The notes below the pieces were generated by a model. It saw only the letters and a program-made list of their open reading frames with translations, did not search any database and was not told where the DNA came from. DNA of 38,768 nt from Nautiliaceae bacterium (GTDB lineage: Bacteria > Campylobacterota > Campylobacteria > Campylobacterales > Nautiliaceae): assembly GCA_027062625.1 (NCBI GenBank), contig JAMOSZ010000019.1:1-38768 (forward strand). The letters run 5' to 3'. This document shows, in pieces, positions 14,296-22,057 of this stretch (position 1 is its first letter; each line of letters begins with the position of its first letter). Made by a program: the position numbers and the translations under genes.

Positions 14296-16320
14296 ATGGT
14301 ATCTGTTTGCACTTATTGTGGGGTAGGGTGTGAGATTGATGTTGAGGTAAAAGATAACAAAATTGTAAAGATAAAACCTTTAAAAAATGGAATTTCAAGT
14401 GGAGGGGAGCTTTGTATTAAGGGTAGATATGGATATGAGTTTTTAAAGCATAGATTAAAAGAGCACTTAATAAGTTATGATTTTGTAGATAGAGAAGCTA
14501 AAAATATGCCTTTTTCGTTGCAAGTTAGACTTGCAAATTTAATGCCTTTTGATGAGAGATTTTATAAAGCTCCATTCTATTTGGCTTTGGATATTGCGGC
14601 GTGGAAAATTAAGGATATTGTAAAAAAATATACTCCAAAATCAATTGGAGTAATTGGAGGAGCAAGGAGTAATGTAGAGAGTGCTTGGATGTTGCAGCAT
14701 TTTGCAAGAGAAGTTATAAAGACTCCCCATATTGATAATTGTGCAAGAGTTTGTCACTCTCCAAGTTTAAGCGGACTTAAAATGAGTATAGGGGAGGGGG
14801 CAAGCAGTGTGGATTTTGATGCTATACTTGATGCTGAGACTATTTTTGTTATAGGTTCAAACACAACAGAGGCCCACCCTATGGTAGCAAATAGAATAAT
14901 AAAAGCCAAAAAAAGAGGTGCTAAGTTAATAGTTGTAGATGTAAGGGAAATTCCTTTAATGAAATTTGCCGATGTTGCAGTCGTTTTGCCGTTTGAAGCA
15001 AATTTACTCTTTTTAAATGCAATTGCAAAAGAGTTGATTCAAAAAGATTTAATTAATAAAGAGTTTGTAAAAAATAGGTGTGTGAGGTTTGAAGAATATA
15101 AAAATCTAATTTTAAAAGATAAGTATGATAAAAAGTTTTTTGAAAAATTAAAAGGATTTGAAAAAATTAAGGAGCAAATTGAAGAGATTGCAAAGCTTAT
15201 TACAAAAAAGACTATTTTTGCTTGGGGGCTTGGGGTTACTGAGCATATTGATGGGACTGAGAGCGTAAATGCGATAAGCAATCTTGCAATGCTTACTGGG
15301 AACTTTAAAAAAGGTGCTGGGGTGTTGCCGCTTCGTGGGCAAAATAATGTCCAAGGTGCTTGTGATGTTGGATGTTTACCTTATTATCTTCCAGATTATG
15401 TTCGCCCAAGTGAAGTTGGACTTATGACTCCTGATATGATTGATGAGATGTTAAGAGGAAAAATAAAAACAATTATTAATATGGGGGAGGATATTTTACA
15501 CATTCATCCAAACCAAAATAAAATTCACAAAGCTTTTAGAGAGCTTGAATTTTTGATGGTAATGGAAGTTATGGAAAATGAGATAGTAAAAAAAGCTGAT
15601 ATTGTATTTGCTACAAAAAGCGCTTATGAAAAAGAGGGAGTTTATGTAAATGCAGAAAGACGCCTTCATTTAAGTAAACCTCTTATAAAGAGTAGTTTAC
15701 CGGATGATTGGGAAGTTTTGAGTGAAATTTCAAAAAGGCTTGGAGTAGATAGAGGGTATGAAGATAGCGAAGAAGTTTTTGAAGCGTGTAAAAGAGAAGT
15801 TAGTAGATTTAGAGGAGCTACTTATGAGAGACTTGAAAAAAAACCTCTTCAATGGCCAATTAAAGAAGATGGGAGCGATTCGCCTATTTTACATCTTGAT
15901 AAGTTTAGCACTCCTGATGGAAAAGGGCATTTTCACTATCATAAGTATCATCTAAGAGGAGAGGTTAAAGATTTGCTTGAAGGAAAGAGAAAGTGGTATT
16001 TAAATACTGGAAGAGCACTTGCTCAATACAATAATGCAGCTCAGAGTGCAAAAAGTGAAAGACTTACAAAAAGATATGGGGATGATATTTTGTTAGTTAA
16101 TGAAATTCACAAAGGTGAAATAGGAGAAGTTGTTAGGTTAAAATCAGCTTATGGCATAAGTGGTCCTCTTAGAGTTAAATTTACAGATAAAGTAAGACCT
16201 TATACTTTTTTTACTACTTTTCATTTTGCAAAAAATAAAATTAATTACCTTTTTGGAGATGAGTCTGATCATAAAGTAAAAACGGCAAGGTTTAAATCAG
16301 TTGAAGTTACCCCTTTTTAA
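14296..16320 (+). CDS. Formate dehydrogenase-like molybdopterin catalytic subunit (Cys type)
   Basis: A 674-residue DMSO-reductase-family molybdo/tungsto-enzyme. The N-terminal [4Fe-4S] cysteines are C5, C8, C12 and C40, with the electron-relay lysine K42 (CIKGR). The metal ligand is C153 followed by H154 in DNCARVCHSPSLSGL, where E. coli FDH-H has selenocysteine, and R347 lies in LRGQNNVQGACD, equivalent to FDH-H R333. This Cys/His/Arg set marks a formate dehydrogenase rather than a nitrate reductase. The C-terminal dinucleotide-binding part is present (LNTGRALAQYNNAAQS). There is no Tat signal, so it is cytoplasmic, like FDH-H. No beta, gamma or accessory subunit gene is adjacent, so its electron partner is elsewhere. 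Confidence 0.88.
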   Translation: MVSVCTYCGVGCEIDVEVKDNKIVKIKPLKNGISSGGELCIKGRYGYEFLKHRLKEHLISYDFVDREAKNMPFSLQVRLANLMPFDERFYKAPFYLALDIAAWKIKDIVKKYTPKSIGVIGGARSNVESAWMLQHFAREVIKTPHIDNCARVCHSPSLSGLKMSIGEGASSVDFDAILDAETIFVIGSNTTEAHPMVANRIIKAKKRGAKLIVVDVREIPLMKFADVAVVLPFEANLLFLNAIAKELIQKDLINKEFVKNRCVRFEEYKNLILKDKYDKKFFEKLKGFEKIKEQIEEIAKLITKKTIFAWGLGVTEHIDGTESVNAISNLAMLTGNFKKGAGVLPLRGQNNVQGACDVGCLPYYLPDYVRPSEVGLMTPDMIDEMLRGKIKTIINMGEDILHIHPNQNKIHKAFRELEFLMVMEVMENEIVKKADIVFATKSAYEKEGVYVNAERRLHLSKPLIKSSLPDDWEVLSEISKRLGVDRGYEDSEEVFEACKREVSRFRGATYERLEKKPLQWPIKEDGSDSPILHLDKFSTPDGKGHFHYHKYHLRGEVKDLLEGKRKWYLNTGRALAQYNNAAQSAKSERLTKRYGDDILLVNEIHKGEIGEVVRLKSAYGISGPLRVKFTDKVRPYTFFTTFHFAKNKINYLFGDESDHKVKTARFKSVEVTPF

Positions 16321-16347
16321 TAGGGGGATTATTTAAAAGTGCCAGAG

Positions 16348-16372
16348 AGTTTGGTTATCAAACTATTTTTTT
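16348..16372 (+). terminator. Terminator after the formate dehydrogenase-like gene
   Basis: Perfect 6-bp stem AGTTTG / CAAACT with a 5-base loop, followed by ATTTTTTT. It isolates the upstream genes from the strong YfdX promoter. Confidence 0.8.
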
Positions 16373-16402
16373 AACTTTTTTAAAGAAAATATCTAAAAAA
16401 CC

Positions 16403-16431
16403 TTGACATAAGGTGGCTAAAATTATATAAT
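16403..16431 (+). promoter_or_regulatory. Perfect consensus sigma-70 promoter of the YfdX gene
   Basis: TTGACA at 16403-16408 and TATAAT at 16426-16431, separated by exactly 17 bases. Both boxes match the housekeeping consensus at all 12 positions. The gene then has an AAGGAGG Shine-Dalgarno, so both transcription and translation signals are maximal. Confidence 0.88.
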
Positions 16432-16455
16432 TATAAAAAATTTAAGGAGGGAAAA

Positions 16456-17340
16456 ATGGCAGAAGTTAAAACTGATGTAAGAATGGAAGAAAATAAAGAA
16501 GTTACTAACAAAGTAAATCAAGCACAAGAAAATTACATTGATGAGAGAGTGAAAAAAATCACACAAGAAGCAGTAGAAGCTATTAATTTAGTTACAAAAG
16601 TAATTGAGTTACTTGATAACAAAGAAAAAGATAAAGCTCTTGAAGAGATTGCAAATATTCTTGGAAAACTTGAAGTATTAATTGCAAGAGATCCAAATTT
16701 ACAAGTTGTACCTGTTGATGTTAAAGAGCAAGTTATTGATTTTCCAGGGACAATTGATGATGTAGAGTTTGCAAAAGCTGAGGTTGTAAGACTTATTAAA
16801 GAAGGTGAAGTTCAAGTTGCAAGAGATATTATGCTTCAACTTGCAAGTGAGCTTGATATTTATGTAACAGCACTTCCAATTGGAACATATCCAGTTGTAT
16901 TAAAAGCAATTATTCCATTAATTGAGCAAGAAAAATTTGAAGAAGCAAAAGCACTTTTAATTGAGGCTCTTGAAACATTGGTAATTCAAAAAATTGTGAT
17001 TCCATTGCCAATTCTAAGAGCAGAACAAACAATCATTAGAGCAAATGAGCTTGCAAATGGTGAAAATCCAAATAAAGATGAGTTAAAAGAGTTGCTTGCG
17101 TATGCAAAAGAACAAATTGCGCTTGCAGAAGCACTTGGATATAAAGTTGATTATAAAGACCTTTATGAAGAAATTGAAAAACTTGAAAAAATCCTTGAAG
17201 GTGAAGAGTCAACAAAAGATATCTTTGAAACTCTTAAAGAAAAACTTTCATCTCTTATGGTTAAATTCAACCAACCAAAAGCTCCAACTCAAATGCCAAA
17301 AGCTGAAAATAAAGAAGAAAATAAAGAGGAGTCTAAATAA
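16456..17340 (+). CDS. YfdX-family protein, cytoplasmic form
   Basis: A 294-residue all-helical protein of the YfdX family (Pfam YfdX). The family core is seen from about residue 75 (LIARDPNLQVVPVDVKEQVIDF) through EVQVARDIMLQLASELDIYVTALPIGTYP and LVIQKIVIPLPILRAEQTIIRA. Enterobacterial YfdX has a signal peptide and is linked to acid and antibiotic tolerance. Here there is none: the N-terminus is MAEVKTDVRMEENKE, and the C-terminus is a Lys/Glu-rich tail with a second helical segment before it. It is monocistronic between a terminator and the convergent rodA gene, and its promoter and Shine-Dalgarno are perfect, so it is probably one of the most abundant proteins encoded here. Biochemical function unknown. 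Confidence 0.82.
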   Translation: MAEVKTDVRMEENKEVTNKVNQAQENYIDERVKKITQEAVEAINLVTKVIELLDNKEKDKALEEIANILGKLEVLIARDPNLQVVPVDVKEQVIDFPGTIDDVEFAKAEVVRLIKEGEVQVARDIMLQLASELDIYVTALPIGTYPVVLKAIIPLIEQEKFEEAKALLIEALETLVIQKIVIPLPILRAEQTIIRANELANGENPNKDELKELLAYAKEQIALAEALGYKVDYKDLYEEIEKLEKILEGEESTKDIFETLKEKLSSLMVKFNQPKAPTQMPKAENKEENKEESK

Positions 17341-22028: not shown

Positions 22029-22057
22029 TTGACAAAAAAAAATTTAATTGATATAAT
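22029..22057 (+). promoter_or_regulatory. Consensus promoter of ahpC with possible Per box
   Basis: TTGACA at 22029-22034, a 17-base spacer, and TATAAT at 22052-22057 preceded by TGA (an extended -10 as well). Bases 22051-22065 partly match the PerR operator pattern TTATAATnATTATAA (about 10 of 14 fixed positions, mostly in the left half), so PerR repression over the -10 is plausible but weakly supported. Confidence 0.82.

Follow-up and report, generated by a model that had tools for sequence, protein, structure and literature searches.

A consensus promoter with a HAIR-like inverted repeat in its -35 box and spacer, a probable HspR-repressed heat-shock promoter, precedes a cytoplasmic-type yfdX gene of Nautiliaceae

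In the window, that is, the whole stretch of 38,768 nucleotides analyzed here from a Nautiliaceae bacterium (contig JAMOSZ010000019.1), a cytoplasmic-type yfdX gene is preceded by a perfect consensus promoter in which a HAIR-like inverted repeat lies over the -35 hexamer and spacer (Table 1). The element is conserved and specific to a small set of genes, and the source genome encodes HspR. From these sequences we infer HspR binding, repression and heat induction at this promoter and a chaperone activity of its product; we hold it probable that this is a heat-shock promoter, repressed by HspR through the HAIR-like operator, and that YfdX is chaperone-like. A consensus promoter can then be a repressed promoter, its -35 box and spacer doubling as the operator.

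Table 1. Features of the yfdX promoter, ribosome site and gene in the window
Feature	Position	Strand	Remark
-35 hexamer TTGACA	16403-16408	+	doubles as the left-arm core of the HAIR-like operator
-10 hexamer TATAAT	16426-16431	+	17-nt spacer after TTGACA
Shine-Dalgarno AAGGAGG	16444-16450	+	5 nt ahead of the ATG at 16456
HAIR-like inverted repeat CTTGACA-TAAGGTG-GCTAAAA	16402-16422	+	candidate HspR operator
yfdX, cytoplasmic type, 294 aa	16456-17340	+	PF10938

The original prediction had described an ideal promoter and a perfect Shine-Dalgarno sequence ahead of a YfdX gene lacking a signal peptide, and each of these points was borne out. The sequence at 16403-16431 matches TTGACA-N17-TATAAT at 12 of 12 positions with a spacer of 17, and AAGGAGG, surveyed with starts from a mechanical ORF list, is a 7/7 match within 20 nt of the start for yfdX alone among the 36 ORFs of the window. 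The encoded protein matches PF10938 with 103.8 bits (cut-off, 26.6; 1.1e-29), and its N terminus, judged by reading, is charged, has no hydrophobic stretch and thus lacks a periplasmic export signal of the enterobacterial style. From base composition, 0.047 exact 12/12 promoters with N17 are expected per window and 1.8 per genome; the window contains two perfect promoters, the second of them (22029-22057) ahead of the AhpC/TSA gene ahpC. This 12/12 ahpC promoter is without the HAIR-like element.

A genome scan for further 12/12 promoters, which had been proposed as a check, showed that the yfdX promoter is not unique: the source genome has 14 perfect promoters with spacers of N15 to N19 (13 of them N17), compared with 2 for the reversed pattern. 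The genes behind them include both yfdX paralogs, clpB, groES, ahpC, a UPF0128 gene and two tRNA operons (groES and the tRNA operons were named by reading; YfdX, UPF0128, clpB and AhpC by searches). Four of these 14 promoters share TTGACA-N8-CTAAA in the spacer, and the other 10 lack the element. Across 21 Nautiliaceae genomes, perfect promoters with N16 to N18 numbered 433 versus 39 reversed controls (sums of the tabulated counts), so that consensus promoters are common in Nautiliaceae and the scarcity of -35 boxes elsewhere, on which the original prediction had drawn, is a poor argument in this family.

The comparison of upstream regions in related species, likewise proposed earlier, brought out a second conserved feature. 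Promoters were anchored for 32 of the 33 Nautiliaceae yfdX genes, the upstream sequence of L099 ending at 44 nt. Besides the -10 box, the conserved blocks are C-TTGACA and (A)CTAAA: TTGACA is present in 30 of the 32 promoters and RCTMAA, in register within the spacer, in 22 (chance, about 0.0016 per promoter). The spacer measures 17 nt in 13 promoters and 18 nt in 19, and the bases between the two arms vary. An unregulated, maximal sigma-70 promoter, which would keep YfdX constantly among the most abundant proteins, could account for the 12/12 match with its ideal spacing and ribosome site, and perfect promoters do also stand ahead of tRNA operons and groES in the source genome. The spacer motif would, however, be superfluous in a plain promoter, and it is common to clpB and a few other genes. 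We consider an unregulated promoter quite unlikely, and in view of the conserved spacer element we did not retain a constitutive-only promoter.

Two further observations concern the surroundings of these blocks. A T-N-A-A block 5 to 8 nt before the -35 box (16393-16398 in the window) resembles a further half-site; across the 32 promoters its T, A and A are found in 30, 32 and 30, respectively. In L100 and L101, cytoplasmic yfdX genes of genus g5, TTGACA-N8-TGTCAA or a similar sequence replaces the ACTAAA arm, forming a different inverted repeat in the same place.

At yfdX of the window, CTTGACA-N7-GCTAAAA lies in register with the clpB and cbpA sites, and it is degenerate compared with the Streptomyces HAIR consensus. 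A matrix was built from 16 clpB and 17 cbpA sites, with no yfdX site included, and was run on 130-nt yfdX upstream regions with 300 dinucleotide shuffles each. It gave 17.5 bits to the repeat of the window, a score reached by none of the 300 shuffles. Among the 33 Nautiliaceae upstream regions, p was ≤0.003 in 27 and <0.05 in 31, the misses being the shortened L099 and L097, where promoter alignment did not find the element either; in L100 and L101 the match is on the opposite strand alone. Outside Nautiliaceae, p was ≤0.003 in 2 of 23 yfdX upstream regions (L078 and L096). Since the left arm CTTGACA doubles as the -35 box, high matrix scores are in part owed to that box, and a stricter pattern was therefore run. 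TTGACA-N7-RCTMAA-N3..6-TANNAT gave 59 matches in 20 of the 21 Nautiliaceae genomes and none for the reversed pattern. As assigned by position or downstream ORF, these matches precede clpB (18), exported yfdX (13), cytoplasmic yfdX (9), UPF0128 (9) and DUF1931 (7) genes and those of an exported 149-aa protein (2) and a coiled-coil protein (1). Because clpB and yfdX supplied the pattern, the 40 matches at these genes are partly circular; the other 19 are not circular and fall into four families, two of them recurrent. A model of the 21 bp alone returned 10 matches at E≤5 in the source genome (150 of 1,891 candidates scored), among them cbpA, clpB and the exported yfdX. The yfdX site of the window was absent from these 10, several of which are apparently unrelated, indicating that the model by itself is unspecific.

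Both yfdX paralogs and clpB have the element, and so does, in a shifted position, the cbpA-hspR promoter. For clpB, it was found in all 16 Nautiliaceae loci read and, outside the family, in 8 of 9 readable loci (14 taken, 5 unreadable), L131 being without it; L139 clpB, read separately, is also without it. Some clpB promoters have ACTCAA as the right arm. At cbpA, all 17 Nautiliaceae promoters for which the start could be placed (in L171 it could not) have TTGATT-N7-RCTCAA, with a G in place of the second T in L188, an arrangement that would be expected for autoregulation. Outside Nautiliaceae, dnaK of three genomes (L237, L250 and L251) has TTGAGT-N7-RCTCAA. A CtsR-like direct repeat, TTGAC-N6-TGAC, was also considered and was dropped, as clpB and cbpA have ACTCAA right arms and a 7-nt center. 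That the element reflects common descent, or a preference of RNA polymerase for certain spacers, with no regulator, appears highly improbable: the two yfdX paralogs are related, at about 30% identity, but the element is also present at clpB, UPF0128, DUF1931 and cbpA, which have no such relationship, the bases between the arms are variable, and 10 of the 14 perfect promoters of the source genome do without it.

The HAIR-like promoter stands before UPF0128 genes in nine Nautiliaceae genomes (L023, which is G000:C42 of the source genome, L201, L209, L271, L279 to L281, L294 and L295), which makes this uncharacterized family a candidate stress protein. DUF1931 genes have it in seven (L204, L273, L276, L292, L293, L296 and L297); their proteins are related to the solved Thermus TTHA1479 and Aquifex AQ_328. 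Both uncharacterized families are thereby indicated as probable stress proteins, and neither was found, among the matches listed, in open-access publications on these families or HspR. In L205 to L207, TTGAC...ACTCAA or ACTAAA stands, in the cbpA register, in the promoters of a 356-aa protein of the MGRIYGRVES type, for which a Pfam search gave no match.

The operator of HspR, HAIR, has the consensus CTTGAGT-N7-ACTCAAG according to excerpts of two papers (PMC7464140, PMC6102357), and CTTGACA-N7-ACT(A/C)AA has the same layout, with two bases of the left arm differing. Promoters of Campylobacter jejuni with HAIR-like sites include Pclp, as stated in an excerpt of PMC7464140. HspR is encoded in the source genome (G000:C68), where it matches the NCBIfam equivalog NF047375 with 120.9 bits (cut-off, 105) and its gene adjoins that of a CbpA-like DnaJ protein; MerR_1 was not found in 3 of the 21 Nautiliaceae genomes, all three incomplete to some degree. 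This arrangement resembles the HspR/HAIR regulons of C. jejuni, Helicobacter pylori and Streptomyces in the association of HspR with cbpA and in the 7-nt-center repeat at clpB and cbpA; it differs from them in that the left arm is a perfect -35 TTGACA and in that the gene set adds the two yfdX genes, UPF0128 and DUF1931. The departure of the left arm from the HAIR consensus might instead point to the operator of a different stress regulator, such as HrcA or another protein. Among the 42 genomes searched, PF01628, a model that may miss HrcA of Campylobacterota, gave no match, and hrcA reads are reported in Nautiliales in an excerpt of PMC10696704. The 7-nt center and the right arm ACT(A/C)AA nevertheless fit HAIR, and the cbpA-hspR promoter itself bears the element. 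CIRCE (TTAGCACTC-N9-GAGTGCTAA), in turn, does not fit it, and no CIRCE was seen by eye in 16320-16456. A regulator other than HspR seems to us unlikely. The literature search, which covered open-access publications, found none that treats YfdX and HspR together.

With HspR as the regulator, a HAIR-like operator placed over the -35 box and spacer would be expected to keep yfdX repressed in the absence of stress, which speaks against the earlier expectation that such a promoter makes YfdX extremely abundant. HspR, of the MerR family, would most likely occupy 16402-16422 in unstressed cells and block RNA polymerase. Upon heat or protein-misfolding stress, it would release the operator, and the freed consensus promoter, together with AAGGAGG, would drive a surge of YfdX synthesis; ClpB, the exported YfdX paralog and CbpA-HspR would be induced at the same time. 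Our best reading is that the strength of the promoter and of the ribosome site determines the maximum that YfdX reaches upon induction and not a constant abundance, YfdX being most likely made in bulk on heating.

The other YfdX paralog of the source genome (C27) has a promoter of the same type and a signal-peptide-like N terminus, including a hydrophobic stretch. YfdX of any type occurs in 38 of the 60 genomes searched, the source genome included. The protein of the window is 54 to 86% identical to 15 homologs from relatives, and proteins of its cytoplasmic type occur in Nautiliaceae and, at 60 to 66% identity, in a small number of further Campylobacterota records (L218 to L220, L222 to L224 and L226). 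An AlphaFold model is all-helical at a weak pLDDT of 66; YfdX structures rank among its best PDB matches, 3dza first, but not significantly so (3dza: E, 0.07; TM, <0.5), and a PDB sequence search with the YfdX alignment gave no YfdX entry at E≤1. YfdX is probably a small helical chaperone of the holdase type, with one copy acting in the cytoplasm and the exported one in the periplasm.

Chaperone-like activity has been assayed for YfdX of Salmonella and Klebsiella, as excerpts of PMC4941729 and PMC6394985 describe, and, by analogy with these members of PF10938, a chaperone-like role for the cytoplasmic type is plausible. The proteins share the Pfam family, the link to stress and the reported chaperone-like activity; the enterobacterial ones are reported to be periplasmic and under EvgA/RcsB acid-stress control, whereas the copy in the window has no signal peptide and a promoter of the heat-shock type. 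Of the structural or chaperone-like stress role first suggested for YfdX, the chaperone-like stress part is strengthened by these assays and by the element shared with clpB and cbpA-hspR, and we found no evidence for the structural part. According to an excerpt of PMC8290217, heat resistance conferred by the tLST needs YfdX1/2. The tLST resembles the present case in that two YfdX proteins are associated with heat resistance alongside Clp and Hsp20 genes; in Nautiliaceae, by contrast, yfdX is linked to such genes by a shared operator and not by an island, and one copy is cytoplasmic. The poorly understood YfdX family would thus be placed in a defined heat-shock gene set of deep-branching vent bacteria, in agreement with its part in mobile heat-resistance islands. 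Among the matches listed, YfdX was not found in the literature on vent Campylobacterota.

Outside Nautiliaceae, 9 of 23 yfdX upstream regions contain a second palindrome, GC-N-AC-N4-GT-N-GC, at a distance of 73 to 97 nt from the start (shuffle mean, 0.012), and it was found in none of the 33 Nautiliaceae ones. The extended form TGCNACN4GTNGCAGA had 31 matches in 60 genomes versus 7 for the reversed pattern, with none in the 21 Nautiliaceae genomes. Thirty of these loci were inspected, and genes were named by reading protein starts: dnaK (4), yfdX (5), hsp20 (2), clpB (1), peroxiredoxin-like (2), rhodanese-like (1) and a shared uncharacterized protein (2), the remainder being other genes or sites inside genes. 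TGCWAC-N4-GTWGCAGA was seen upstream of dnaK, clpB, hsp20 and yfdX in L236, L237, L241 to L243, L245, L247, L250, L251, L253, L256 and L259 (match near 1501). Campylobacterota are not known to have a heat-shock sigma factor. Tentatively, YfdX may be a core heat-shock chaperone of Campylobacterota whose control has two layers, HspR/HAIR and, outside Nautiliaceae, a putative positive regulator that would bind TGCWAC-N4-GTWGCA at about -35 of dnaK, clpB, hsp20 and yfdX. This regulator would then stand in for the heat-shock sigma factor, and in Nautiliaceae the perfect -35 box would have taken the place of the palindrome. With the palindrome, positive heat-shock control in Campylobacterota becomes open to direct testing.

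Some copies of the HAIR-like element lie in the opposite orientation. At groES (L029:1501-1519, G000:C52) the element is 27 nt upstream of the -35 box and at hsp20 (L169:1501-1519, G006) 5 nt upstream, positions that differ by about two helical turns. Finally, clpB of one genome (G013:C1:575834-578376) is split into two pieces, each open frame having a single internal stop, suggesting a broken gene or an assembly error.
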